Positions 20,735-54,800 of a stretch of DNA of 64,000 bases are shown here, piece after piece (positions within the stretch are counted from its first letter, which is position 1; every line of letters starts with the position of its first letter). The notes under the pieces are model-generated. The model ran no database searches and was not told the DNA's origin. It saw only the letters and a program-made list of their open reading frames with translations. Made by a program: the position numbers and the translations under genes. This DNA is from Pomacea canaliculata (lineage: Eukaryota > Mollusca > Gastropoda > Architaenioglossa > Ampullariidae), in assembly GCF_003073045.1 (NCBI RefSeq), contig NC_037592.1:18743844-18807843 (forward strand). Direction: 5' to 3'.

Positions 20735-23700
20735 TCAACTGTAAGCTAATCGGAGATTACGCTCTTGTTCTTTCTTTTCACTCTCCATTGCTTTAGACAT
20801 ATCCTCCACTCGTCGACCAAGATTTGCTGGCAAAAGAAACAAGCACTTCTTAATGGGCATTAAATAAAAATGAAGACCTTTTACTTTGATAGTAACAATG
20901 ACTTTCTTTTTTGAAAAAAGATCTTTTTGCTTAAAATAAATTAGTATTAGCCAAAAACATTCATTGCTTTTTAGACTTTATTTTCTCATATAAAGATCTT
21001 TTGGAAAAAACTTTGCCTAATACACAATACAATCAAGAATTAACAGCAAAAGACAGTTCTTTTTCAGCATCTGCATATGAAGGTATAAAGATAAAAAAAT
21101 ACACACCAGTCTGACGATCAATCCACAGCAGTGAATCCATGTGTGCATTTAAGATCTTAGTAATCTGCTGCACCTGTTAACAGACAGTACTAGTCTACAT
21201 TCTACCATACTGAAAAAAATTGTCTAACTTCTCTGTCACTTTGAAAACAGATATATGGTTTAGAATATTGTGAGCTACCCAACCACCAGCTAACAATCAG
21301 TCATGCAATCATTCTAATCAACTTTTATAACTAGACTTACAGGATCATCTGGATCAGGTTTAGCATTGGAGGAATTGATTCTGTCAATGATCTCTTTCAG
21401 ATCCTGGCCCATGCGTTTGAGCTGAGCATCTAGACTTTCTGCAAGCTGGTACCTGTTGTCACAAACCACAATAATTAGTTTAATAATAAGAATTTTCATG
21501 TGTGGAGGAAAGCTCAATACACTGTGCATGAAGGACCACAAAGAAACCCACAGTTAACCATTAAGTTAGCACTAAGGTCAGTAAAAGATGATACCAAGGC
21601 AAACGTGAACAATGTGAATGGATGAAGATTAAGAAATCAGGAGAGAATAAAAAGGTTCACTGGATTATGAAAGAGATTTCTTGAAAGGCCAGACTTATAA
21701 GCATCAAATATAAATTAAAGAGAAAGGATCCAAGAATTTCCAGGAAAGAAGCATCTGCTAAACTTTTCTCATCTTATAAGTGGCACAGAGAGTAAGTCAG
21801 CACAAGAAAACTGTAGAGAGTGACTTGGGTGATCAGGCATTGGTAGCTCAGACAGGTATGCGGGGCAAGGCTGTAAAAATAACAGTTGCACAATGTGGAG
21901 ATTTTGTAATCAACATGAGCTTGAACTGGCAACTAGTGTAGCTTGCCAAAGAGGAGAATAGCATGGCAAATTCTTTTACATCAAAACTGCACATAAAAGA
22001 GAGAAGATGTGACCTCTACAAGAAATCAGCAAGACCTACGTGTGTTCTCGTTCTAAGTCTGCATGCTGCTGGTATGAAATTGCAGGCATGGCCTCAAGAG
22101 CTGACTCTATTGGACTCAGAAGATCACCCAGCTCCCGCTGCTGGCTCTGTACAAAATCCAACTCATGCTCTAGCTTCTGCTGCTCCAGCTTGACCCGTTC
22201 CAGGTCTGTATTTAATTGTACAATCTGCAAGAAACCCATCATTGCCTGCTTATCATCAGACACACTATTATGAAGGAATGTGTACACACCAAGTCTATTA
22301 GCTGTTACAGCAAGCAAAATTATTTTAAGTCAAATATAACAAAAGATGCAAGGTTTAAAAAAAGGCAAAAAAAAATGATCATTTACCTCAGAATAATACC
22401 AATGTCCCTAAATCTTAAGGGATGTGTTTATTGGTTGAAAGATATGCATCAGATAAAATGTAAGGAAACAAGCAACAGTTATGCCCTAATATCTGCTCAA
22501 TAAAATAGAAAAATAAAAACAAAACTAAATGTAAATTAAGTTGTTTGTAAGTTTCAACATGTAGATCATAACAAAGAACTTTCTTCATGCTGCCTCTAGC
22601 ACTCCTGCTGTTTGCATTAGCTGCTGCATCATTGCAGTTGTAGCGTTTAGTATTATAATAGGTCTTGAATCATCTGTGGATACTGTATCTAAAGACCAAA
22701 ACATCCAATCATTTTACTTACCTTATCCCCATTTTCAATAACCAGACGATCCCAAGCATTAACCTGAGTAGCTTGAAGCAGAAAACTGCGCTCTTCCTCT
22801 TCCAGTTCTGCCATCCACTTGTTGGTCTCCTCTTCCAACTGTTTGTAGTTCATCTGCCGTCCACCAGTTTTAACCTCCGTGGCAGACACTGTTGCAGCTG
22901 CTGAAGTAGTTGAGGTGCTGTAATTTACAAACAATGCAAACTGTCAATATAGAAAAGAAAAAAAAATCTCATGGAAAACCTCACTTCTACTGACGTATAA
23001 GCCCCGCGCCAGTAATATTATAAAATGAAACCATTTGTGTTACATAGTTCAGAAGTTAACACCTAATTCTTCCCTCCCCAGAAAGACAAGAGAACACTAC
23101 AATACATATAACCATATTCACTAAAATTGGCAGTTCAAAAATTAAACTGCAGTATTCAAGGTCATAAATAACTGAATGCTACTGTTTTTTTCTCAACATA
23201 AATTTCATTCTTATGTACAGCTAGCCACTTAGCACCTTCCGTGATCAAAGTTTATTATATTTTTATTTTACACTGATATGATTACTTCAATTTGAAGTGT
23301 TTAAATTTCAAAGATGCTTCAGAAATTAAAAACAAAACTTTCTCACTGAAATACAATGTAATTATTGGCAGAAACTGACTTTTGGCAGCCCTTTAACTTC
23401 AATTGAGATTTACTGTTGTATGGCAACACATGGAAAACAATGTGCATAGAAAACAATAAAGATGCCAAGGATAGCTGACAAATAAAACACTATTTCTGAC
23501 TCTGGGGTGCAAATATATTTATATTTATTTCTGATGCTCATACCTAAGAGTCAGTACAGGGGTTGATGAAGTAGCCAGCGATGTTCCGAATGAGAATCCA
23601 GTGCTTGGTGTAATTGTTGTCGTTGTGGCCGTTGTTCCCAGCTTCAAGCCACTTGATCCAAAAGAAACACTAGTGGTGGCAGATGTTGAAGGTGTGGTTG

Positions 23701-26700
23701 TGGTTGGGAGACCAAAACTGAATGGCTGGGAGGTAGAGGAAGCAGCAGAGGTGGCAACAGTGAGACTTGTGGAGCCAGGCTGAGCTGTGGATGTTCCTGA
23801 TTGACAGAAGAGGAACTCACCAACTGACAAACAAAAAGCAACATCAAGGTTATAGCCCATTATGTTAGTTTCTAAAGCAAAGCACCCAGTGTGAACTCTT
23901 AAAGATTTCTGTTGAGAAATCACTTTCTGTGGGTGACAAAATGTCACTTTCTTGCACTGTTCAGTTGTTTTTTGAAACTCTCTCACACACCCCTTTCATT
24001 CCCTCTCCTCACACACACACACAGAGACAAGGAAATATGTGACCTGCAACTCACACTTACACACAAGCTAATAAGGAAATATGTGACCCACTACCACAGA
24101 ATGAGTCATCAGCCAAAAATTTGAGATTAAGCAAATTGCATATTTTTAAAATGTACAAGTTTTGACCTTTCTTTTGATACCAGAGTTGTTCTCCTAGTTC
24201 TAAAATTGAGTTATAAAGGTTTGAAATGTGCAAGTATGGTGGCGCCATTTTGAGAAAAGCGGGTTCAAAGATTTTCAGCAACTTCACTAAGTTTATCCTT
24301 AACATAGGGTACTTCTAATTGTTCAAATCTTGCATGATAATAAAATACAGTCAGCTACATCATTTAAAGTAACAAAAAGTATGATCATGTCTCATATAAT
24401 GCAAAATCTCTACTGCCAGTATGGACTATTGCAGCAACTACTTTAATGAGGCTTCAAATGTACAGTCCACAATCACTTGTTGGGTACCAGCTAACGTCTA
24501 TCACCAAAATCCATATCCCACCAGAGTTTGTGGTCTTGTTCTTGTCTGTAAATTGATTAGACACCGGACTTTGCTCTTGTCTTATGGCAGTCTCTATTTC
24601 CAATAACCTCGCAGAGTGTACAATAGAAAATGACAATCCATACACTGCACTGTCACAAATGGTAATGTTGAGAAGGAAAATGGACTCCCAGTGCAGCATA
24701 GCTGGTACACCGTTATATATGTTAGTTTCCATATATTCTCTGCTCAAAAGATGAATCTGAACAAGTAGTGTATCAGATTCTGTCAGTCTGATCCTCTGAA
24801 GCCTGTTCCTCACACAATGATAAATCATCACTCGTTAAATTATCCTCTTTCCCAGAACGCTCTGTAATTAATCTTCCGAAATCTAATTTTTGGAATGCAG
24901 AAGTGTTAGATAGATTGGAATTCAGTAAAGCTAATAATGCTTCATTTTTCATAAGTTCTTTACTATGTTTTTGCTTCACATAGCATTTTGAAAGTGTGAA
25001 CAAAACCTAGCAGGAGTTTTATCAACCTATCACTCAGCGCCTTTCCTTTCGCTATCAAGGACAGTTCAGTGTCTAATTTTCCAATGAGATAGTGTAGAGA
25101 TTAATGACCAGATTTGTTTACTCGGAAACCTCTGTAGACAAATCTTCTAATTGGTATATATTTGAATCAGTCATCAAAGAGACTAGAAATACAGATTTCA
25201 AACTCTCTGGCAAGGTATAATACGATGAGGTTTTGACAGAGAAATGGTACTGAAACAACAATGGAATTTCAACGTTTTCCAGCAGAAATCTGGATCGTCA
25301 TTGGGTACCTCGATTAAAATTTATTTTAAGATCACTTCTTTCATTTTAACAGTGTATTTTCATGTTAGTTTAATAACTAAGAAATTCATGCATAAAGAAA
25401 GTAAAACTGCACAAGGTTGACCCTAAATCACCTTTCTGGGTCTTTACTATGAAACTGTTCTGCATGACCTACAACTCATTTCATGGTGGCAGGTTGCATA
25501 TCAATGCTAGATCCATGCATTTATGACCTACCAAGAGTTGCCTGCTGGACTGTTGATGCTCCTAAGAGTGATGCTAAGGATGATGTTGTTGTAGCTGGAG
25601 TTGCTGTTTGAATAAATCAATGTAACAAATGTTAAACTAACTTGATAACAAAGAATCAAAAATTAAATGATAGCACAGCATTATTTTTTTTTTTATTGGA
25701 CTGAGATGTAAGTACAAGAAACCATCTGTCTGATATTTAAACAGAAGGGTGAGGTGCCCAAAGGATGGCGCAACAGAGAAAGTTTACAAACAAATGTGCA
25801 CCAAGACAAGAGCTATGACAATCCTAATGCCAGCTGTTACCTTATCTAGATAAAGTGGATGACAAGATTATGAAAAAGCACCAATATGATGCACATGCCT
25901 ACCTGTTGCAGATTTTGTAAGAGAAAATCCAGATGCTGTGGTTGTAGTTGCAGTAGACAGCTGTCCACTTCCAAAAGAATATGCTCCTGTTGCTGCTGTT
26001 GGGACAGCTGTACTTGCTAATAAAAACACAGCAGATCCTAATGATTTTGCACATCTAGCTAGGTTTTGTAAACTATAATATGCCACAAGTTACATAAATT
26101 TCCATAACCTAGAAGAAGTCCGTTTTTCAAACCTTCCAAATTACTAAAAGGCCAGCATTTTCCTTCAATGAAAATAAGTTACAAGTGGTTTGTTAGATCT
26201 TCAGTTAAAATTACTGTGGGTTTCATGCTTACAGCTAAAACTGTTAGGGGTTTATTGATTAGTCACAGAAAAGAGTACAGTGGTAATATTATTATGATTT
26301 TGATCCTTCGTGTTATAAACTCACCAAAAGAGAAAGATGGTTGCGTGGTTGGTTTTGCAAAGTTAAAGCTGTTTGCTGCAGGCTGTGAAGATGGTGCGCC
26401 AAATGTAAGTCCTCCAGAGCCTGCAGCAGCACCAGAACTGGTAGTTGATGTAGTAGTGGATGTTGTAACAAATGGGAAGCCACCAGCAGAAAAGCCACCA
26501 GTTGGGGCAGGCTGAGCCGCATTGCCAGCTGTCTGTGTGCCAAAGGTGAAGCCGCCAGTTGCTGCAGGCTGAGCTGCATTGCCAGCTGTCTGTGTGCCAA
26601 AGGTGAAGCCGCCAGTTGCTGCAGGCTGAGCTGCATTGCCAGCTGCTTGTGTACCAAAGGTGAAGCCGCCAGTTGCTGCAGGCTGAGCCACATTGCCAGC

Positions 26701-28039
26701 TGCCTGTGCACCAAAAGAAAAGCCACCAGAGGCTGCAGGTTGAGCAGTGTTGCCAGTTGCCTGTGCACCAAAAGAAAAGCCACCAGAGGCTGCAGGTTGA
26801 GCAGTGTTGCCAGTTGCCTGTGCACCAAAAGAAAAGCCACCAGAGGCTGCAGGTTGAGCAGTGTTGCCAGTTGCCTGTGCACCAAAAGAAAAGCCACCAG
26901 AGGCTGCAGGTTGAGCAGTGTTGCCAGCTGCCTGCCCCCCAAATGAGAAGCCACCAGCCGGTGCAGAAGCCGAGGAGGCTATTGATCCAAAGGTAAAGCC
27001 ACCTCCGGTGGTTTGTGATGCTGCCCCTCCAGCTGCTGCATCATTGCTTGCTGCTGTTGTTCCAAATGTGGAGCCTCCCAGTGTGGAACCAGAAGTTGTT
27101 GTCGAAGCACCAAAAGTGAAACCACCAGATGGTTGTTGACCAAATGTGAATCCTAAATCCATATCAAATAATACTTAAATTCTACTTCTCAATCAAATCT
27201 AAATCAGTCACAAAGAGTTTAGACATTACATACAGTTTATCCTTTACCTGTTTATGGGAAAGCATAAAGATTCACCATTTTTCATAAGAGCCTCTTGGAG
27301 GTAAAGGGTAAGCACAAACTACAATTAAGGCAAACAAATGCACTTAACTCAAATAGATTTCATAGCTTTCAACATTAATTCAACTGTTCGCAGCATTGGA
27401 AAAATGGGAATCATAAATAATATTGTGTTAAAAATTTTCTGATCTAAAGAAAGCAGGCAAAGATTATGGCAAACATTACCACTTATCACAAATACAACTG
27501 AGAACTCAAATATAAAAATTTAATTAAAACACATCGTGATTTTTTTTTACTTACATCTCCTAGCAAACAAATAAGTGTTTAATAAATGCAAAATAATTTT
27601 TATGGAAATGGTATGATGCTTATTGTTTACTGTAAATAAGATCTAATAAAAAAAATATATGGTGGTCAGATACTAGACAGTGGTGCTACTAGACTATGTG
27701 GACAATAAAGTAAAAGGTAAAGACCTGTTCAAGTCATTAAGGAAGCAAGGTGTTAGAGACCTCACTTTATTCGGGCCAGCTTTAAAAGAGGGCAGTGCCT
27801 ATCTCCTCTCCCTCACTGCCTTACCTTCCCCTACCCTCTTTAGAGTCAGGTACCTAGTTCCTACAGCTCAATCAACTAAGTTTGCTGTACTACTTGGGTA
27901 TCGAACCAGCACACCTCTCAGTTCAGATGCACACTTGGCTATTCGCTTCCCCTAGACAATATAGTATCAACAGAGTTCTATTTGACAGTCAAGCATCTTT
28001 TCTTTTCTCACCTCCTGGTCTTGGCCCACTTCCAAACAT
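20735..28039 (-). CDS. NUP62: Nucleoporin p62 (NUP62)
   Basis: Ten exons: 28012-28039 (ATG), 26325-27152, 25903-26016, 25532-25603, 23544-23796, 22722-22917, 22040-22224, 21341-21452, 21107-21173 and 20735-20826 (TGA). All phases match and give 648 aa. The start is MFGSGPRPGGFTFGQQ. The first two thirds are FG repeats (FTFG, FSFG) in Thr/Ser/Ala/Gly-rich sequence that would form the pore's permeability mesh. The last 200 residues are the Nsp1/NUP62 coiled-coil region: LEEETNKWMAELEEEERSFL, VNAWDRLVIENG, LERVKLEQQKLEHELDF, YQLAESLDAQLKRMGQDLKE and ILNAHMDSLLWIDRQT, ending KKEQERNLRLAYS. In the family this part assembles with NUP54 and NUP58 in the central channel. Human NUP62 is 522 aa; the excess is FG sequence. 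It is divergent from MRPS21, 759 bp away. Confidence 0.96.
24050..25500. other. Large NUP62 intron section with unassigned coding-like remnants
   Basis: The intron between exons at 25532 and 23796 holds minus-strand open frames at 24454-24831 and 24773-25003. The latter includes LLALLNSNLSNTSAFQKLDF and an acidic DDLSLCEEQASEDQTD segment. These could be remnants of a transposon gene, but I recognise no domain, ends or duplications. Confidence 0.2.
26497..26952 (-). repeat. NUP62: 57-nt (19-aa) tandem repeat array inside NUP62
   Basis: Eight head-to-tail units each encode 19 residues of the form GFSFGAQATGNTAQPAASG. Units 2-4 give identical protein and units 6-8 form a second subtype (GFTFGTQ.AGNAAQPAATG). 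Each unit carries one FG motif. The array adds about 150 residues to the permeability domain. Copy number is likely to vary between alleles and may be mis-assembled. Confidence 0.93.
27690..27957 (-). mobile_element. tRNA-derived SINE
   Basis: Reading the minus strand from about 27957, an A-box-like TAGCCAAGTGTG near 27935 is followed by the B-box GGTTCGATACCC at 27896-27907. After the tRNA-like head comes a body containing CCTCTTTTAAAGCTGGCCCG. It sits in intron 1 of NUP62 in the same orientation as the gene. The cloverleaf is not complete enough for a functional tRNA, so a SINE is the better call. Left and right borders are approximate. Confidence 0.65.
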
Positions 28040-35036: not shown

Positions 35037-35348
35037 TCATTTCTGCCTGGCTTTGGCTGCTTGCCGTAATATTAGCCTCACCAATTCCCCCCCCCCCTTC
35101 ATCTCTGCTAGGCTGACATTGTTTTCATTCTGCCTGGCTTCGGCTCCTAATTTCGCCATTCTGTCAGCCTGCTCATTCCACAACACCATTAAATAAGGCT
35201 TCCATACTACTGTGTGAGAGTATCCACTGCAGAACCGTTTTAAGAAAACAGATATTTCGTTTAGTGCTGCTGTCAGCTTAGGTAGCCAGCTATCGTTGAC
35301 AGTTTGTAGGACAGACAGGACTGTGAGCAAAAGGGGATTGTTTTGCAA
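35037..35348 (-). mobile_element. RNase H-domain fragment of a non-LTR retrotransposon
   Basis: A 103-codon frame contains SVLQTVNDSWLPKLTAALNE, then LWNEQADRMAKLGAEARQNE and NNVSLAEMKG. This matches the RNase H region found at the C-terminus of many invertebrate LINE ORF2 proteins (consensus ...GNEQADRLAKLGAEA...). The usual LLTDS acid site reads LLTVL, and the reverse-transcriptase part is missing. Further element-derived sequence probably extends on both sides (34790-35600). Fragment, not mobile. Confidence 0.75.
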
Positions 35349-36779
35349 GGGTTCCGAAGGCCAAAGTTGATCACGCTCCTCTTTATCGCCTGGTGGACCT
35401 AGACATTGTCAGTGGACACATGGAGTATTTCTTACCGTGAGGTAGTAGTGCCACCTGAACCACCCCTGTCAGTTGGTGTAGGACTGCGTATTCTTCCAGG
35501 CAGAACCACGGTTACTTCGCATCTAACCTCCATATCTGGAGGCCATTCTCCTATCCACTACTTGGGGACGGTGTTAGGGGTGGCTACCCCGCTACAGGAC
35601 TGAATATAGTCTGGTCCCAGCAGGTAGGTTGTGGTGTTACAGATTCTTTCTTCTGTTCTAGAATGTTAAACCAGGGTGGAACATACAATTCTATCATCTT
35701 TTCCTTTTTTATCGATATATTCGCAAAGAATAGTATTATTGTTGAACATGGTTAACATGTAGTACAGCTAGACGCCGACCTCAGGTGTATAAGCACATCA
35801 CCGAAGTTAAAAAATTAAACACCTCACCTTAACAGATTGTTAAGGTTTGTGAGGATATAAGAAGTGACTGCATTTGCTCACACAAGGAGGAATAGTTCCT
35901 AATAGACTTGACTCTTAACCGACATTTTAATCTTAGCATCCGCATGCGACTGTCTTCAGGAAGAAAGGAGGAAGTCTGGCCAGTTGTGGCCTGTGCTGGG
36001 CTTCATCAAGGCGTTTCCCTGAGGAAGTGATCTCAGAACTTTCTTATGCTCCTTCCTCTTTTTTCTGGCGACTGTCTAGCTGGAGACTTGCATCATCTTC
36101 GTAGATGCCAGAAAACGAACGGACACTTGTAGAAAATATATCGAGAAGTCTACTTTTTCACTTTTTTATTAATAATGATTACATTCGATTAGCATTCATT
36201 TATAGCTATTGCAAGTAGTTACGTGTCTTCCACTGCTTTAAAACAAATACATTCAAAAAACAAATACGCATATGAACCGATAGATATATATATGCACACA
36301 CACAAATAAGCTTGCACATATAGTACAAATGAAAATGCACACACACGCACACATCTATAACTTCAGACATGGCAGATATCATTAAATTATCACAAGTCAT
36401 ACGAAATCGGTTTCCCTAATAGAAAGTATAAGCAACTTTTCCAAAATGTTCATTGTTGGAGGACAACAGCTTTAAAAAAAATACAAAATGTAGCTTCAGT
36501 ACCGTAGAGCTCAGGTGAAAGAATCCGTTTCTAGACAGCACCATGCCCCGTACATTTCATCTTCACTTTACATAAATATCTAGGATTTAAATATTTCAAA
36601 ACAATACTGTGTATTTTTACTCTTGTAACTCCTTCCTTGCCGGTTGCCCCGCATACCTTCTTCATAAACTCAAGAAAGTACAGAAACGAAGCCATGTTAC
36701 TCTTTTCACTTCGTTGTCCACACTGACAATCCATCCGTTTTCGCATTCAGAGCAAACTGTCTGTGCTGTGTTTTAGTTT

Positions 36780-43224: not shown

Positions 43225-46200
43225 TCATAAAACGTTTTCGTTATCTATGATATTGCTGATGAGAGGTTTGTCCTGCTTTCGAAAAACATGGTAGAAACGA
43301 GTGGCCACAAATCCAATCAGAAGGCCGACCACCAGTGCTGTCACCACTCCGCCAGCTAGTGCCCCTGAAGAGACAGATTTGGTCACTTAGGTGATACTTC
43401 AGTTAAACAGTTCATAATGATAACCTTTCCACCTCATGCCCCTTGTTAACTCTTGAGTAAATAATCTCAGTGTCGTCAACATTATCATCGCCACAGACAA
43501 CAGCACCACCCAAGCATTCACTTTGTAATAGTCAGAGGAGGAGAGCTTGCAGTTATGCGTTTTCGTCGACTCATGTAAGAACAAAACAGAATATCAACAC
43601 ACAAGAACTGAGCCTGTACTCGAACATGAGACGGAATAACACATGATCTGCAGAGGACTAAGAGGCTGATCCTATACAAAGGGTCACGAATACTTACCAG
43701 CGCTGTAATCCGACTCGCACTCGGGTGAGTCGGAAATGACGAGGTGACGGGCGGATGAGATATGCTCGTGCAGGGTGGATGATGGACATGCACACCCTGT
43801 CGCAGTGGGACACGGCGAGCAAGGGGTGCACTGGAGAGCCATGGCTGTTGTTGGGCAGGAGACACGGGGTCGGGAGGTGGGGCACGAGCAGGAAGTCGAC
43901 CTCGGCGGGCACGGGACGATTTCCTTGGGAGGGCAGGGCGTGGGCGCAGGGCACGTGCAGCGAGGAGAAGGTGGGCAGGGCTTGACCGGTTGGCAGCTGG
44001 TAGTAGGGATGGGAAAGGAGTTGATTGGACGAGGTGGGAACAGTTGCATGGAGGAGGAGGTGGCGGACAAGTCAGCCGCGTAGTGGCTGCCAAGCGTGTG
44101 GAAGGAGAGGTAAGTCGAGATGTCCGCACAGATGACGATACCAAAGGCGTTGTGGGCGGGATGCTCCTGACAGTTGGGCACGTGCAAGGAGTGGGCAGAG
44201 GACAGGTGGCTGTCCTGGTGTTAGTAGAGGTTCTTGTGGTGGAGGTGGTGGTGGCTGTCGTAGGTGGCGCTGTGGGGACTTTCATGGAGATAGTTTTCGG
44301 AGGTAGAGTGGGCACTACGATAGACGTCGGTTTGGCTGTCGTTGTTGTAGTTGTGGTGAATTCCTCATGAAAGTTGTGCTCCACAACATTTACTCCTTCT
44401 AAAGGCATTGGCTAAGGACAAAACAACGAGAACGTGAACCCACACGGTACAGCTACCCTTTTTAAAAAACGAAGAGTACTTTCTTCATGTCTGGTGATGG
44501 TTTCTACTTTTCTCATCGATTAAACACATCTTTGATGAAGCCAGAAAACTCATTGTACTTAAATGCGTGCAGTCTAAAGGTGTGAAGAAAAGTTTTTAAA
44601 AAAAAAAAAAGAGAAAGATCTACTTCCAGGTTTTCTGCCAGTGCACTCTCTCGCTCACTGACTTGCTTAGTCGAGTGGTCGTTGTAGATTTATGCATGCT
44701 TGCACGTGCATGACGTTTCTGGTATACAGTGAGAGGTGAGTGTTATGTTTTCAAGACTAACATACGCTTTTAAGGTCCCTGCATTCTTAAGCAGCACCAG
44801 AAAAGTCCTTACATTACATGACTGTATAAATTTATGCAAAGCACACAGAATGACTCTTACAAATATATTTTTGACTGCGAGAACGGAGTAGCTATTAGGT
44901 AGATATTAACAAGATTTTTTTTTAAAAATTACCTCACCGTCGGAATCACTGAGCATTATGGCCAGGTGGGAAGCTGCAACTGACCCCTTCAAGAAGTCGA
45001 AGGCCCCATTAAGGTCAATTTCTCTTCTGCCGAAACCATTAACTTTTGATGGGCCAAGCATAGTTCCACTCATAAAGAGCGTTCCGTGCTGGTCATAGTC
45101 GAACTGCAGTTTGAAAAGACGGGTGACGCTGTCGTATTTTTCGTTTGAACAGAATAAAGTTTATTTTGTCGCATTAAACATTCAGTCATCTGAAACGTTC
45201 GTCCAATAAGCTTATTTTTTATAATTGCCCGAGACTGATAGCTGGCAACTCACACACAATTACACTCGATTTGTCTTCTTGTAAGGTTGACAGTCGCACA
45301 CACACATCCTCCTCCCCCTTCCTCGGGCTCCAAAAGCAGTATAGCGCGCTGTCCCTTACCGTAACATCTGTGAAGCGATTAGGCTGAATCTCCAGGTGGG
45401 AGGCAAGCTGTACAACCACGGTTTCCCTCAGGTACGGTCTCCCGAGGAGAATGAAGTTTTTGGGGTTAACAACTGTTTATTTGTAAAACAGTATGCAATT
45501 ACACATCGGCACACATGCATGCAAACACACAAACACAAACACGACTCATTTCGGCACATAAGCACAAATATTCTGTTTTTCTTACTGGCATCCCGATATT
45601 ACAATGATGATTTCAACCGAGGATGTGTGAGTCAGAGAAAGCAACCATTTTCACACATGTTGTGGGTTGTGCTTGTGCTATGTGGAGAGCGTGTCAGCAG
45701 CTATATTACGGAGGCCCTGTAAACAGATGCCATTGCCCGAGAAGAAATGAACACCAACCTTGATGTTAAGTACTAATTGCTTTACCTTTGAACTCTATAG
45801 TAAAGTGTTTCTTGTTGCTGGCGTCATAGCAGGTCGCGAAGTCAAAAACTCCAACGTCCGGTGTGGTAGGGTTGTAACGCATGATGTTATATACAGCTGG
45901 TCGCAGGGATCCACCCTGAAGGAAACAATGCACAGGGAAGAGTATACTCACCAAGAGTCATAATACATTGTTCTATACGCTGAAACACGAGACACTTCAT
46001 CTCTGCATTTGTTCTATGATTGCTTGATTTAGTTTTGAATAAGCGCGAATTTTAATTGTATCATTTCAGTAACTGGTTTCGTAGCATTGGACGTTACAAA
46101 AGAAAAAAAAATGTGTTAACAATCATTACGAGTGTTTACTTGCAGTTATTTAAAATATTGCGAAATGTAGCGTGTTCGTTAGCGTGACATTGCGCATTTT

Positions 46201-49200
46201 TAATAAGCTGTGTAGCAGTTTGGTTGTTCTATGCCCAAGACAGCAACACACACACCCTCACGCACGCATTTACGCAGCTATCTACTTTCTCTTTGGAAGT
46301 TCCTGGTCGAAAGTTCAACATCATAATTCTATTTTTACATAATAATCGACAATGTTCCATGGTCTGTTTCCTTCCAACAAATAAAACCCTGAACATTTTA
46401 CTGCTGTCCTCAATAAAGTGAAGTAGGCCAGTTTTCTATATAGTAATAAAATAAAATAAGCGCTTAATGCCACAATATTCTTGTGAATGTATATATATAA
46501 AATATGCTGCATTCTGTATTTGTTGAGAAGAGTAGCTTACTTTCCAGATCTCCATCCTGAAAAATGCACCGGAGCCCACAACACTTCCTGTCGCCTCTGT
46601 CCACTGCGGTCTGGATAAAACCGAATACGAAATAAATTTTGGGGGAATATGCTATTGAACTTTTCCGAGGTCTTTTAAAATGGCCAATTTTTCGAGAAAA
46701 CCCGATTGTCTCAAGCCTAATGTTATTATCTGTGTGCACTTAAATGGAGAGAAGAAAGAATAACTCGTTTATATTGACATTTCACAATGCTATTATTGGT
46801 ATATCAGAGGCTTATAGATGAAATATTTATTTAAATCATTTAAGTCTAGTGCTGCACAATGATATCTCGTCATAAATCATAGCTAATGGCCTGTGTGGAT
46901 GTTTGACCAGTCATCTGACTGTCAATACAGAGACAAACAGAAGGATGTGAATAAACGCGCCTTCGCTATTCGATTGTTATCTCCCATTACACAACACCAC
47001 TGTTTCTATGTAATATGTAGCAAGAAATTACACACCGATGTGAAATACCACTGGACAGTAATCTCTCTCTCAGCATCAGGATCAAAATATTTACCGATCC
47101 AGGTGTTACACTCCACATCACGAACAGTGGTCTGCCCACCACAAAGATATAAAAATAAAGAATGTTAATTATGATGTTTACAAAATGCATGTCAATACTG
47201 TAATAATTTGACAGGTAGAACATCGCATTGTGAGTGAGTGTGCATACCTGTGTGTGTGTGTGTGTGCGTGCGTGCGTGTGTGTGTGTGTGCGTGCGTGTG
47301 TGCGTGTGTGTGTGTGTGTGTGCGTGCGGATATATATATATGAGAGAAAATTATAGAGTGAATTGTCGATCAAACAAGACTCGTTACAAGCTCAAAATTT
47401 GGAAATAGCTGGATAATCCGGCTATTTAGCAAGAAATAATCGCAGGCTCAAACTGTAATACGACTTGCTGAAACTCCCAGATAAGCCCGTTCACATCCCA
47501 AGTGGTTGAGACTAACAGGCTGCTTCCGTCCAAGCCCGTTATCTATTAAGTGACACAGCAGGAAGGTCCGCTGAGTAGCGAGGAGATGCACTTAGTGTAC
47601 GGATGTCAAAAGAAAAGTCGAGCACGACAGAAGATGGCCGCTATCTAGATGAATCATGGAAAGGAGAAAATCAAAACGATTCTCTCTGCTAAGATGGCCC
47701 ATGTGTTTTTCAAGAAAAAACTACATCTGAGCAAGCGAACCTTCTTGCGACTGTTTTAAGAAAGTGCTTGAGGTAGCACCAGGCACCTGAGTGAAAGTAC
47801 ACGTGTGGTAGCAAGGGCCAGTAATCCTTTCCCCTCCAAAGGCAGTGTGATGTGTGGCAGGGGAGACGACCCACACACTTACCGTTCCCACGTACTGTAT
47901 GTCAGCGACCTCCGAGTGGAAGTATGTGGCGGCTGACATCATCGAGATGTTCTTCTGATTGAGCATCACAAAGTCATCGCCAATGACAAGAGGCGACGGA
48001 TCCTCGCACGACATGAGATGGATATCAATCATATACTTCACACCTGAACAGACAAACTGAGCCTTTAACAGTGAAGAAATTAGTATGAACATGAGACCTG
48101 TATGTTATATTGGTCACTCATTCATTGTATTCATAAGTGTTCGACGTTGTTCTTACTTCCTCTATCTCTGAATGGGGGCTGCTACGATCATAATTTATGC
48201 ACATTGATTAAAATTTGTCAAAACTCTTTAAGAAAGACATGATTATGTTATACTGAAAATGGATTTTCAGTAATGATGTGTATAATTAATTATTTCACAC
48301 ATTAAATGATTATTTGTAATAACTTATAAAGTACTTTTTGTCACCTAAGAAAGTTATAAACTCATTTTTACGTTTTACATTTCTGTTTCCTTTTTCTCGA
48401 TAGAATTACTCTCAGTGTATTGAGAACTGCATTGGCATAAGCAGATCCTCTTCACACAGCGTAACCCTTACCAAACATCTGTCTTATCCACCGTGTATGA
48501 TGTGATATCTTTACTATCGGCTATCGGGCAGAAGCCCGGAGAAATAAATTTGACCTTTTTAGCTGGGATCAGTACTAACTAAGGTATCTTTATGCCCTGA
48601 TAACTCGAAGCAATATAAATATGCCATCTTAATATCTTTTTTTTTTGAAGAATAGTTATGTAATCTAAAAGTCTCATTTATTTGAAGCAAGATAATTTCG
48701 TATCCTTCCAATTATTTATTTTCCTATCGCTTACCTACATTGAAGTCAAAAATATAGGTGTGCGCATCTGAGTCTGAACCATCAGCCCTCTTAGAATCCC
48801 ATCTCACCATCTGCAGGCTCCGGTCATACCAAATCTACAACATGGCACCAACCTTTACACCATATTGTCGACCTAACATCTCACGATATAAGAGAGGTCT
48901 GACTGCTGTCAAACTACAGTACAAAATGTCACTATCTAAAGGAACATTTCTTTTAATTATTTTTTGTTTCGTGAAAAGAAGATGTTTTGTAATAAGTAAG
49001 TGCACTTTATCAACTCTAAATATGATAAAATAAACGATTTTTTTTTGAAGGAAGGGGTTTATTGACTTTGGATTGATATTGTTTTCAGATCGACAACTTA
49101 TTTAAACATCAACTTCATTCAGTGATCATCCTTTATCTTCGACTATTTAGACATTTCATGCGTTAGTGACCCTGACCTCCTGATACGCGATCCGCAAGAA

Positions 49201-51810
49201 GTCCTGGTCAATGACTTCCATAAGCAATGAGAACTGGTCTGGAAATGACGGGAACCGCATGGACTCGCCAGTCCTGTTCGGACAAAACAAGCCTTTTGAC
49301 GTCTGACACGCACATGCACAACCACACGCGCACCCACACACACACACAAACACCTTGCGAGTATACAATTACAGGAATAATTTTACAAATACAAACATAA
49401 GTGTACACACTATTGTAAATTGTATCATCATACAGAGGTTAGAGATAAAGATTTTCAACGATTATGAATGTGGAACATCATTTCATATTTCACTCCTTCC
49501 ACTTTAAACTAAACACTGAAGAAAAGAAAATAATGCAAGTTGCCGTACGATAAATGTCTCTGGCTTAAAAGTTGGATTTTGTTGAAATATTATTAAGTCT
49601 CCGATGATGTTATATTCTGTGACTTGTGACCCATTGTGTCGACGTGCAAAGTACTCCACGCGCAAAGGAACACTAGTCTGAGGCGTCTGGAAAGGCGACA
49701 TCCAAGATGAATCTGAGGAGTAAAGTTCCAGTGTTAACTGTCAGCGAAAAACTGAAATAAGCCACACTGACATACAGTCACCTATACTGGAATAGGCAAT
49801 GTTTTTGTTTTGTTTTTCCTGTGCACTGCTATAATGTTTTTAACAGAGTAATTAAAATCGTGCCACATCAAAAATTTGAAAAATTCAGACAACTCTATGT
49901 AAAGGACGACTGCGAAGTCAGTAAGAACGATAAAAAAAATAAATAAATAAAACAAACAAACAAACAAACAAACTAGAAGAGAAAGAAATACCTGAAAAGT
50001 AGAAAGTTGCTCGGTTGGTCATGTTAATGCTGTAGTCGTACAGGCATGCACTCCATCTGGTGGCTGGTATGCCACGAACCGTCGTCGTGTTTACCATGAC
50101 AGCCTGAAAGCCATTCAACACAGTCTTCTGAGCGACATTACAAGATCCTGTGTAACAAAGATGATACACATATATACTCCTAAAATCTCTACCGCTCTTC
50201 TGGGAATGCTTGCAAAAAGCGCAGCATACTATTACTACTAACAACAACAACAACAACAACAAACATTTATATGGCGCTTTTCCAGTGATTTGCTCAGAGC
50301 GCTTTACAAAAATGATACACTGGCCCATCCGCTTAAACTGAATCACTAACAACTATGCGCCCAAATTCGAATGTAACAGACACTCTTGTCCTAAAACTTT
50401 CAGCTTTGTTTGTTTTTATAAGCCACGTAGGTTTAGAGTAAGAAAAGTGTGGCAGAAGGAGAGTGACAGCATGGCTTATAGGTAAACAATTTTGATGAGG
50501 AAAATGGATATGACATAAAATGGCAAAGGATGTGCTGTTGTTCCTACATCTTGGCTGGCGGCCATTTGTTGGAAGAGAAAGTTGAAGGATGTCAGGTAGA
50601 AGATGTCTGAGTACGAGTACTGATACCCCACAATACTGTGCACCACTCGACACGTCGGTCCAGAGCTTGCGCCTAAAGGGGAAAAAAGCCAAAAGTTTTG
50701 TGTGAGGGCGTTGCTGTACGCAGTGTACAAAAGACATTTGTTAGCAAGAGGTTCGTAAACAGATTTGTTGATTTGTTTCCGTGTGAGGTTTCTCACGCTA
50801 CGTGACTTGATTGCTCTCTGCACTCACTGGCAAAACTAACGTCCTCCACCGTGACGTCCTGCGTCAGGTCGTTGAACAGAAGCCTGACGTCAGCAGTCAC
50901 GTAAGGAAGGGAGATCACCACAGTCTCCTTTTTAACCTCCCAGCTACGGTAGTTCTTCACGAAGTAGGTGTGTCTGGTACCCAGGTCACTCCATGCGATC
51001 TCTGTCATCCAGTTCTGAACAAGTGGTGTAGGAGGTTCTGAAACTGTCAGAGTAAGTTTGTTTGTAAGGACGTGCAGAGTTTTGTCTCTAAGGATCCAGA
51101 GCAGTCAGCAAAAAAGGAAAAACAAATTTATGAAATGCCTTGTGTATTTTAGTTTTGGTTGTACTGAATGTTGCATACCTTGCATTTTGCTTTGAAGTGA
51201 CCCATAGGTAAAAGGAATTATTTTTTTTTACAGCAGTTGCAAAAACTTTTGGCGAATATTGGTATAGCGTGCGATAAAACTAACAACTAAGGGAAGGCTT
51301 GGCTAGGCTTTAGTTTAGACAAGTGGTACTAACTATTAAAAAACAATTTTATTCCTTCAGATCAAATTTCATTTTAAATGGTGATAAATATTTACATTAA
51401 GCTGGCGCATATTAGTGTACATAACTTTCTTTTGAATTAGACAAATGACATGCTTAACTCACGAGATTTTATTGACAAGATTGATTTTGATGTAAAAATA
51501 AAACAGAACCAAACACGACAGCAAAATAAGAACAAATAAAAGCAATAAAATATTAATTAAATAAACAAACAACACTGCCTATTTCTCTTGACAAGTGCAG
51601 ACTCCTGTCATCCTCTCATTCACACAAGATGGCGCTTCTCGTCAGTCAGACCTGGCGCAATTCTAATATAGTAAATAACTATTGTCTACCTCGCCCGTTG
51701 GATGGTGTGCAGACAGACGTGTCAAAGTCAGTGGCGCTCGACGAAGGGAGAATTAAAGTGGCTAGTGACATCATCCAAAGACAGCACACCGTGTGAGACG
51801 TAGACCCCAT
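43225..51810 (-). CDS. Multi-exon type I membrane protein with duplicated (LolA-like?) modules and Cys/Pro-rich stalk
   Basis: Fifteen exons: 51690-51810, 50828-51037, 50548-50672, 49992-50199, 49549-49712, 49177-49302, 48735-48834, 47883-48043, 47036-47131, 46541-46603, 45786-45915, 45360-45472, 44933-45128, 43698-44411 and 43225-43364; about 890 codons. It starts with a signal peptide (MGSTSHTVCCLWMMSLATLI, cleavage expected after SSSA). Two related modules follow: VRGIPATRW...FYFSDSSW in the first, and FPDQFSLLMEV, IFDFNVGVKYMIDIHLMSC, VRDVECNTW...WYFTSW and FDFATCYD in the second. Then comes a segment with VVVQLASHLEIQPNRFTDVT, a Thr-rich to Cys-Pro-rich stalk (TTTTTTTAKPT, CPPSPRCTCPAPTPCPP), one membrane helix (ALAGGVVTALVVGLLIGFVA) and a 25-residue tail. 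From memory the modules resemble invertebrate LolA-like/DUF7959 proteins of unknown function. Phases agree at every junction except 45360/45128. The stalk exon changes frame once. Confidence 0.72.
43698..44411 (-). other. Thr/Pro/Cys-rich stalk exon with an internal frame change
   Basis: The 5' part (from 44411) reads TTTTTTTAKPTSIVVPTLPP, then CPLPTPCTCP and CPPPPPPCNC. After about 44030 the CP pattern continues only in another frame (SCQPVKPCPPSPRCTCPAP...CSPCPTATGCACPSS), which leads in phase into the membrane exon. The exon is 714 nt, while its phases demand 3n+1, so one base appears to be missing among the C-rich runs near 44010-44070. The repeated CPxPxPCxCP units suggest a rigid, disulfide-rich or O-glycosylated spacer. 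Confidence 0.75.
47246..47340. repeat. (TG)n/(TGCG)n microsatellite
   Basis: About 90 bases of alternating TG with CGTG interruptions, ending in ATATATAT. It lies in the intron upstream of the exon at 47036-47131 and accounts for the long Thr/His-rich shadow frame on the minus strand. Confidence 0.95.
50236..50330 (+). repeat. Interspersed repeat: (AAC)n plus ATTTATATGGCGCTTTTCC core
   Basis: AACAACAACAACAACAAC is followed by ATTTATATGGCGCTTTTCCA, GTGATTTGCTCAGAGCGCTT and TACAAAAATGA. The sequence (AAC)n-ATTTATAT(A/G)GCGCTTTTCC...AGCGCTTTACA is a very common short interspersed repeat in aquatic animal genomes. It lies in an intron of the minus-strand membrane-protein gene. Confidence 0.7.
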
Positions 51811-54800
51811 ACTTCTTACCATCTGCTGGCCTCGAAGGCGCTGCGATGGAAGTCCTGAGGATCAAAACCTTTAAAGAAGAATTTGGCTTACAATGATGCT
51901 GCTGCCTCCATTGATAGTTGTTTTTTTTTGTTGTTGTTGTTGTTGTTGTTTTGTTTTGTTTGTAACGTATCAATCTTGATACGTTTTTAAGTTACATGGG
52001 CCTATTATTGCCTAAGTAATCCAAACAATGGGAAAACTGTCAGTATATGAGTAGTATTACTATGGCATGCACATTGAGCTTTACGCATTTCATAAAGTTA
52101 AGGTAGAAAAATACGTATTATTAACAATGTATACGTCTCTATTGCGGTAATCACGTTTCGTTGTATATATACTATTTTAATAATATGTTACCCTGGAAAA
52201 CAAAAGTTCACCGGAAGCTCATCAGAAATGTGACAATGCACACTAGGAAAAGGTGCAGCGATTGTAGTACATGTATAAGGAAACGGAACAAAGGAGTACT
52301 TCTCCTGAGAATGAGTTTATATATAAACTTGTTGAAATGTTAAGCGTGCTGCTCTCTTCTAAAACTGTGTTATCATTCTTAAAGTTGCGTGCACGGACAG
52401 AGAGAGAGATATACTAAGAACGATGACACCGTATCAACGTTATCCGCCCCTGAACAAGTGTATTATAACAATACTACCTTTATCGTTTACTGATTGCGAT
52501 ACCAGCAATGGAGGTCAGCTATTTCTATTTGTTTGCTTTTTGGTGTATCACATAGACAAACAAGCCATTACACGGATGGCAGAAAATACGATTTGTTGTT
52601 CAACACACAATCTTCAGAATCGACGTTTAAACATACTGAAATTTTGCTTGGTGCTGTCTACCAAGACGATAAACGATAAGAACGTGAGTGATGAATGTCA
52701 GGAGTAAAAAAAATTATTAAAGATGTATAAAAAAAAGCAAGGCAGATTAATAATTGAATACCAATTTATTAGACTCATATAATGTTTTCAAAATTAATTC
52801 ACTTTTTTTTAAAGTACGGTCCGCCGTAGCTGTCAAAGATTTTAAAAAACAAAATTAAAAGCGAATTTAAGTGTTTGCAGTGTATTCGTCAATAAGATCC
52901 AGTTTTCTATAATAGTAAGTCGTGAGATTTTGGCATATTCTACGTATAAACAAGCCTTCTAGTACCCTCTCTCTTTTATTATCAATCACATCAGTCATGT
53001 TAACCACTATCTTTAATCTCTTTCAACACTGTGTAGTACTTTGTGAAGAGCACCCAGATATGTCTTGCCTTGTGATTGTGACTACCTAATTTTGCTGCTA
53101 GGTGAAGTGGATAAATTAGAAAGCGAGAAGCCTGAATATAAAGACAAAACACAAACCTTTCTTGCTGTCTCTTTAACGTTCACATAGCTGATCGGTGAAC
53201 TGATTGTAACAGTGGGAAAAACACTCTGTCACCGACAGTAAGTAAAGAAAGTCACTGAAAACTTCTATCGTGGAGCAGCTATAACCACTAGAAAGCTTGT
53301 GCTTAGCACGAACCTTACTAACCCATATTGGGGCATGATAACGATTTCGATATCATTGTAACAGTGATTGTTTGATTGGTCGTCTTCGACTTCAAGTTCA
53401 ACTTTTTATCGACTTGGATTGCGGGGATCCATAAGTAGAAAGGCTGATATTCAAAATTAAAACAAACGAAAAAGTCCTTTGACAAAGCACAGAAAAACAT
53501 GGATAGAGAAAGCAAACTAGCTATTAGGCACATTAATCTGGGATGGGGGTATCCTGGATAAACTTATAGGGTTAAGGACTCACAGACCCCTCTCAGACCC
53601 CACCAATTTCCCTGTAAAGCTCAAAGGGTTCCATTACATCAGGGGTAAAAGCATAAATTATGAGATACCATAAACTCTTAACAGAGAAGGGATTGGTACA
53701 GACTGATACACGCATGCTTTTGTTGTAGCTTTGCTGTGACTGAGGTAATCAATATTTGCCTCATTTTGAAAAGGTAAAATCTTATTGCACAGAAGCCCCT
53801 AGCAGATTCTCTCTTGTCCTGCTGGTCAAACAATAACAGTAGTGCCAAAAGTCACACACACACACACACACAGCACCCACACTAACATCTTACACAAACA
53901 CATACACAATGACATTGGACCCTAACAACCCACACACACACAGGACACTAAAAAAAAAAATCATTAAAGTACCCACGCTTTGTCAGCTGGAACCCGAGCA
54001 ATTGCCCCAGTCACGGTCTTTTACACACGTGAACAAGCGGAACTCCCCACTACCGATCCACCTACCTTTCGGAGGGCCACATACACCATAACACTTTCCC
54101 TACCTGCATGCATCCTACGCATTGGTAGCATATAATGAGCATACAGCGGCCATGTTTGTGAGGCATCTATCTACTCACATAGAGGTGCTCAAATAACGCG
54201 TCCTGCATTGACCAGCAGACTCATCATTGTCTCATGCTCAAACATAGTCCACTCACAACCACTGGTTTACATGTGCAAAAGCGACACAAAATTTAACAAA
54301 GGACCATTTTTCCCGATACCTCACTGCAGCGATCCCATCTCAGCACCTAAAGTCCACCTGGGTTCTGTTTGAGACATCCGCAAACAAGATTTTTTTTCTT
54401 GATGTATTTTGTTTGTATGCGTTAGGCTTTGTTAGATGGGTTCTTCCGAAAGTTTTTTTTAAAGATGGGTTGAGTGGGGGAGGTTTGTTCCGTCACTCAT
54501 GTGTATTACAGTGTATATAATTGTAAACAACAGTCGTCGATCTTCGGTTCTCAATCACGGGCACGCTGTTTTTTCTCTCTGCATGTGACATCTACAGGCC
54601 GGCTGCTTTGCCATGGTGTAGCCTTAGTTGCTGATGGTGTAATTATACCAATAGTATCCCTCTCTCCTTGTTCCGGTTTGCTCGAGCTTTTCTTTCATAA
54701 GTGTGTGCACATGTAAATTGTATTGAAGTTCTTATGTGATGATCCACGGGTTATTTTTAGCGAGAAAGGGGCTTGTGCTATGTAGTGTCACACTGATATA

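Follow-up and report, generated by a model that had tools for sequence, protein, structure and literature searches.

The 64,000-nucleotide stretch of Pomacea canaliculata DNA considered here (contig NC_037592.1, positions 18,743,844 to 18,807,843 of the forward strand; hereafter the window) contains a gene on the minus strand, from 51810 to 43225, which encodes a putative surface protein. The layers of the protein follow each other in the order signal peptide, module 1, module 2, third domain D3, stalk, one membrane helix, and tail (Table 1). Exons 1–13 (51810 to 44933) join into 564 residues with no stop; 12 of the 12 junctions are phase-matched, and each intron between these exons starts with GT and ends with AG. 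The exons were called by reading the splice sites in three frames and by a purpose-written spliced aligner. The aligner was guided by the hand-made gene model, and its output is a consistency check, not independent proof; independent support for the model is provided by the paralogs described below.

Modules 1 and 2 are designated as the first (R1) and second (R2) repeats. An alternative start for exon 1 is the in-frame ATG at 51822, and in the paralog C2b an open frame upstream of R1 is similar to exon 1 (KLDTSVC versus DFDTSVC). Another start of exon 4, at the AG before GSCNVAQ, was rejected because its phase clashes with exon 3; the chosen AG, 44 bases further on, fits the phase and agrees with the paralogs. 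The intron before exon 9 carries a TG-rich microsatellite array (47229–47328).

Table 1. Layout of the minus-strand gene (window coordinates).
Feature	Content	Residues	Coordinates	Strand	Remarks
Exon 1	Signal peptide and ectodomain start	1–41	51690..51810	-	Cys34; donor CGAG/GTAGAC, phase 1; hydrophobic stretch KD19 1.57
Exon 2	Module 1		51037-50828	-	Phase match
Exon 3	Module 1		50672-50548	-	Phase match
Exon 4	Module 1		50103-49992	-	Phase match
Exon 5	Module 1		49712-49549	-	Phase match
Module 1	First repeat (R1), exons 2–5	~34–251	49549..51037	-	Ends in exons 1 and 6
Exon 6	Module 2		49302-49177	-	Phase match
Exon 7	Module 2		48834-48735	-	Phase match
Exon 8	Module 2		48043-47883	-	Phase match
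Exon 9	Module 2		47131-47036	-	Phase match
Exon 10	Module 2		46603-46541	-	Phase match
Exon 11	Module 2		45915-45786	-	Phase match
Module 2	Second repeat (R2), exons 6–11	~245–470	45786..49302	-	
Exon 12	D3		45472-45360	-	Phase match
Exon 13	D3		45103-44933	-	Phase match
D3	Third domain, exons 12–13	~470–564	44933..45472	-	
Exon 14	Thr/Pro/Ser/Cys-rich stalk with CP motifs		43698..44411	-	Frame change ~44050
Exon 15	Membrane helix ALAGGVVTALVVGLLIGFVAT, 24-residue cytoplasmic tail		43225..43364	-	KD19 2.45; acceptor TTCAG, phase 1 match; stop at 43225

An earlier interpretation of this locus, made from the letters alone (the sequence-only reading), had proposed a signal peptide, a single membrane helix, and a short tail. 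All three were recovered: the N-terminus is hydrophobic (KD19 1.57), the helix reaches KD19 2.45 against a maximum of 1.15 across residues 41–564, and the tail comprises 24 residues. The Cys-Pro stalk that it also proposed is present at 44411–43698, but not as one continuous frame. Threonine, proline, serine, and cysteine make up 74 of the 124 residues before the frame change and 61 of the 100 residues after it, in a second open frame. The two frames do not connect (the shift lies within 44060–43980, minus strand), and no positively scoring splice donor is present in the first part of the stalk exon. The shift is accounted for neither by a good intron nor by an obvious indel, and Cys-Pro coding potential exists on both sides of it. 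The aligner spanned the shift with a 50-base gap (44030–43981), which we do not believe to be a real intron. The frame change may reflect either an intron or an assembly indel.

The landmark motifs attributed to the two modules were all found on the minus strand, TTTVRGIPATRW and YFSDSSW in module 1, and TTTVRDVECNTW and YFTSW in module 2. The Smith–Waterman score between the modules is 51, whereas the mean for shuffled sequences is 32.3 (s.d. 5.2), with 12 of 2000 shuffles scoring as high.

The genome (440,159,624 bases in 24 contigs) was searched with the window modules. Apart from the exons of the gene itself, this gave seven weak matches at other sites (best E 0.063). The loci concerned are clearly related to one another: when one of them was used as the query, 30 places were returned, among them its own four exons. 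Spliced alignment found R1, whole or partial, in 14 loci outside the window. The paralogs thus occupy at least 14 loci, of which contig 2 holds four, contig 5 two, contig 9 one, and contig 10 seven, several of them clustered. R2 was recovered in 12 of these 14 loci. A short R2 core probe was applied to 14 stretches, and later a longer guide to 15. Low scores with the short core (C2c 5.5, C10e 12.4, C10d 19.7, C10f 20.3, and C9 28.0) are partly due to stretches that began too late or to DNA that ended soon after. Twelve of the stretches aligned with the longer guide were kept as R2; of the remainder, one repeated C10c, and two lay upstream and scored below 20. The R2 copies of C9, C10g, C2d, and C10d are truncated where the analysed DNA ends, and R2 was not found with the short probe in C10e and C10f, where little downstream DNA was covered. 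Some end exons and poor pieces of the aligner output are probably spurious, and the obvious ones were trimmed by hand. Clusters of R1–R2 loci are located at C10:24.45–24.49M (four loci) and C10:9.49–9.58M (three loci), which suggests local gene expansion.

When the paralog R1 repeats are compared with the paralog R2 repeats, hhalign gives an E of 4.8e-19 over 181 columns, and the two are one domain. Hidden Markov models (HMMs) were built from the 14 R1 and the 12 R2 repeats of the paralogs, with the window modules left out. The R1 HMM gives 42.2 bits for module 1 (W_m1; shuffle maximum 8.6; 472 of 500 shuffles reported), and the R2 HMM gives 129.8 bits for module 2 (W_m2; shuffle maximum 6.9; 469 of 500 reported), the latter in a match that spans nearly the whole model. 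Module 2 also reaches 32.1 bits with the R1 HMM, shuffles giving at most 5.2, while the 9.3 bits of module 1 with the R2 HMM are not above chance, as shuffles reach up to 11.2. The R1 HMM aligns only residues ~122–234 of module 1, so its N-terminal half is strongly diverged. The window protein has R1 followed by R2, the order that defines the paralog family. Given that its modules score with HMMs built without them, this order predates the split of the paralogs, and the window gene is a diverged member of the family, not a one-off duplication. The duplication asserted in the sequence-only reading is thus borne out both by the direct comparison and by the HMM scores, and the two modules are related beyond chance.

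The same reading had described a two-module ectodomain; both modules are there, but the third domain, D3, between module 2 and the stalk, was overlooked. D3 matches no Pfam family (best E 0.16). Its Smith–Waterman score with the paralog C2b is 52, against a shuffle mean of 22.9 (s.d. 4.0), and none of 2000 shuffles scored as high. For the C2a piece, 404 of 2000 shuffles equal the score of the direct comparison, which is not significant; C2a resembles C2b in the D3 region (4 of 2000). Downstream open frames of C2a and C2b contain a helix comparable to that of the window protein (KD19 2.31 and 2.14, respectively), which may be spliced to the repeats. By eye, the long CP-rich stalk is not seen in these frames.

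The C-terminal landmarks of the repeats suggested ependymin-related proteins (EPDRs). The EPDR profile contains 13 rows, the EPDR1 chains of human, mouse, and frog from PDB and ten exon pieces of the EPDR-like genes of this genome. Without the window modules, the pooled repeats of the paralogs (26 rows) align with this profile at a score of 35.4 (E 9e-5, 120 columns), and the score is 39.2 (E 1.9e-5, 162 columns) when the two window modules are included (28 rows). Column-shuffled EPDR controls reach at most 18.3 with the 26 rows, and none of the 198 valid controls (of 200) attains 35.4; the same 26-row profile scores 10.8 with retinol-binding protein, 10.7 with D3, and 11.6 with LolA. The R2 paralogs alone give 25.7 (E 0.0046). 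An earlier test with fewer rows, A2 versus A3, was weaker (E 0.014 over 72 columns).

The alignment with EPDR is collinear, beginning with the strand that precedes the sixth-strand Cys and ending at the C-terminal Cys. Across the repeat family, an N-terminal Cys, Tyr-Asp and a basic residue, the sixth-strand Cys, Tyr-x-Gly, Trp, Pro-Val, Phe, Phe, and the C-terminal Cys occur in the EPDR order, and neither window module carries every landmark. The EPDR1 positions D70, R77, W151, P174, F191, F204, and the pair C113/C210 are those given in PMC6363788. In module 2, Y289-D290 and R297 have the same spacing of 7 as D70/R77, and C332 lies 42 residues after the Asp (43 in EPDR1); W384, F450, and C455 come next in sequence, and the loop ahead of the Trp is longer. 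Module 1 has C118, W169, P205, F243, and C251 in order. By alignment and by eye, the counterpart of F191 is ambiguous in both modules. The counterparts of the cysteine pair are, by alignment, C118/C251 and C332/C455, with a predicted bond.

Differences from EPDRs can also be noted. In the repeats, the stretch from the sixth-strand Cys to the Trp is longer by 13–14 residues. PMC6280359 describes EPDRs as secreted single-domain proteins of ~200 residues, whereas the window protein has tandem modules, D3, a stalk, and a membrane helix. The Pfam ependymin model PF00811 was matched neither by five window pieces at E<=1 nor by eight A2 members, both modules included, at E<=10 (hmmscan). Because of this and of the different architecture, the window protein is not assigned to the EPDRs. 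Separate EPDR exons exist in the genome: those at C1:14.38M and C8:11.71M exceed the PF00811 cut-off (4 of 20 matches), and a cluster at C7:14.64–14.73M and a locus at C4:19.35M are EPDR-like in translation and below the cut-off.

Several results besides the unmatched PF00811 weigh against kinship with EPDRs and a LolA-type fold. R1 alone scores 18.5 with EPDR (E 0.059; up to 15.7 in 150 column shuffles of an earlier test without the window) and 17.4 with retinol-binding protein, 1.1 lower, so R1 alone proves nothing. The score of the pooled profile with human EPDR1 alone, 23.7, is exceeded by one of 200 shuffles (26.9). Module 2 resembles human EPDR1 marginally (BLASTP E 0.032, 39 of 155 residues identical, 40 of 2000 shuffles as high) and frog EPDR1 not significantly (214 of 2000); for module 1, 1569 of 2000 shuffles score as high with human and 806 of 2000 with frog EPDR1, no better than chance. 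Module 1 has no Asp/Arg pair, and module 2 no conserved Pro. In Pfam, neither the modules nor the paralog repeats nor D3 matched a model at its cut-off (best matches below it: YejG, E 0.01; Rhabdo_M2, 0.077; the rest 0.11 to 0.27), and three queries, namely a paralog repeat, the repeat profile, and module 2, had no sequence match in PDB. The repeats score 11.6–11.9 with E. coli LolA in hhalign, which is background, as retinol-binding protein gives 10.8–11.4. The proposed kinship with EPDRs depends on the pooled profile, with few real unrelated families among its controls.

As for LolA, PMC6363788 reports that EPDR1 crystals have a LolA-type beta-clam with a hydrophobic groove and contain a dimer in which both grooves lie on the same flat face; known bacterial LolA-fold structures are described there as lacking disulfides. 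The EPDR profile itself scores only 13.5 with LolA, near background, despite the fold shared in crystals, and the missing repeat–LolA match therefore says little. The LolA model PF03548 matches nowhere in the genome. The likeness to LolA/LolB, LprG, and VioE would be the fold expected via EPDR1 (same source); the difference is the lack of sequence similarity to E. coli LolA, the sole member compared. The LolA-like modules of the sequence-only reading have fared unevenly: the direct comparison is at background (11.6 versus 10.8), but the pooled repeats align with EPDR, and EPDR1 has the LolA fold, which supports the idea indirectly. That reading had regarded a match to ependymin as contrary to its proposal; since EPDR1 itself is LolA-like, the match refines the proposal and does not refute it.

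The R1–R2 family may well be the LolA-like domain/DUF7959 family, whose members we take to be extracellular invertebrate proteins with LolA-like modules. The accessions that we presume for it, PF25898 and PF25899, are absent from the Pfam copy used, and the name DUF7959 was not found in the literature searched. Among the matches listed, the titles and the starts of the abstracts mention no membrane-anchored tandem EPDR-like protein.

With the gene structure, the module duplication, the paralog family, and the profile similarity of the pooled repeats to EPDRs established, we consider it rather probable that the gene encodes a type I membrane protein with two tandem EPDR-like domains, probably binding a hydrophobic ligand; its fold, disulfides, ligand, location, and role are inferred. 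Both EPDR-like modules would adopt the 11-stranded LolA-type beta-clam fold, and D3 and the Thr/Pro/Cys-rich stalk, probably rigid or glycosylated, would keep them at a distance from the membrane. The curved sheet of each module would form a groove that holds a hydrophobic ligand (a lipid, sterol, fatty acid, or carotenoid), and the groove would be closed by the inter-sheet loop and by a disulfide from the sixth strand to the C-terminal segment (C118–C251, C332–C455). On the surface of the cell or of endolysosomes, the protein may serve to capture such ligands, to store them, or to present them. By analogy with EPDR1, for which binding of lipids or probes is reported (PMC6363788, PMC6608618), it would bind hydrophobic molecules from its position on the stalk. 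The Kd of human EPDR1 for the hydrophobic probe ANS is ~14 micromolar (PMC6608618), and a sponge EPDR heterodimer binds carotenoids (PMC10470211). The surface receptor for lipids or other hydrophobic ligands suggested by the sequence-only reading is likewise an inference.

The tail is short, and signalling via a known cytoplasmic module is therefore disfavoured. Its motif DKPLI resembles what we take to be a dileucine-type sorting signal, which makes an endolysosomal site possible; the motif is not seen in the C2a frame. That the tandem modules mimic the EPDR1 dimer is a guess. In an extended form, which we put forward only tentatively, the tandem R1–R2 would be a covalent counterpart of the EPDR1 homodimer, with both grooves on one face and mounted on a stalk, in an animal family of surface lipid receptors or shuttles that uses the LolA fold and has at least 15 loci in this genome, distinct from its classical secreted EPDRs.

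It is also conceivable, and in our estimation rather unlikely, that the EPDR/LolA fold was kept and lipid binding lost, so that the protein is a stalked adhesion or matrix-contact protein with a purely structural pocket. The stalk and type I topology are suitable for this, the literature includes mollusc shell-matrix proteomes mentioning ependymin, and PMC6363788 does not decide whether the fold serves mainly to bind lipids. However, Pfam finds no known adhesion domain in the window protein, and the structures and assays of EPDR and LolA centre on the hydrophobic pocket. We hold it to be improbable that the modules have another beta-rich extracellular fold, with the similarity to EPDR being a convergent pattern of aromatics and Cys spacing. 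The similarity is at the profile level only, with no HMMER match to PF00811 or the EPDR1 chains, the real unrelated controls are few (retinol-binding protein and D3), and R1 alone hardly separates EPDR from retinol-binding protein; on the other hand, the pooled E of 9e-5, the in-order alignment to the C-terminal Cys, and the 198 shuffled controls, none of which reached the pooled score, argue for EPDR. Decay of the window copy into a non-functional paralog, the least probable of these explanations, would agree with the stalk frame change without a convincing splice donor and with a module 1 recognisable only in its C-terminal half, but several features speak against it: the 564 residues are open across 13 exons in which every phase and splice dinucleotide is preserved, module 2 is near the family, the membrane exon beyond the stalk is intact, and a C-rich frame is open to either side of the change, as a small assembly error or an intron would leave it.

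Elsewhere in the window, two open frames on the minus strand (26263–27174 and 23525–23995) contain repeated GGFSFG/FGAQ units and by eye look like a p62-type FG-repeat nucleoporin. A further minus-strand frame (35037–35408) includes NEQADRMAKLGA and by eye resembles the RNase H part of a retrotransposon.

If the proposed type I membrane protein with two tandem EPDR-like domains is real, the beta-clam of LolA and EPDR would occur in animals also as a tandem membrane-anchored ectodomain and not just as a secreted carrier. A large, apparently uncharacterised family would join a superfamily of known pocket chemistry, with a ligand that is directly testable. It would also suggest that ependymin-related proteins have relatives unseen by the Pfam ependymin model.
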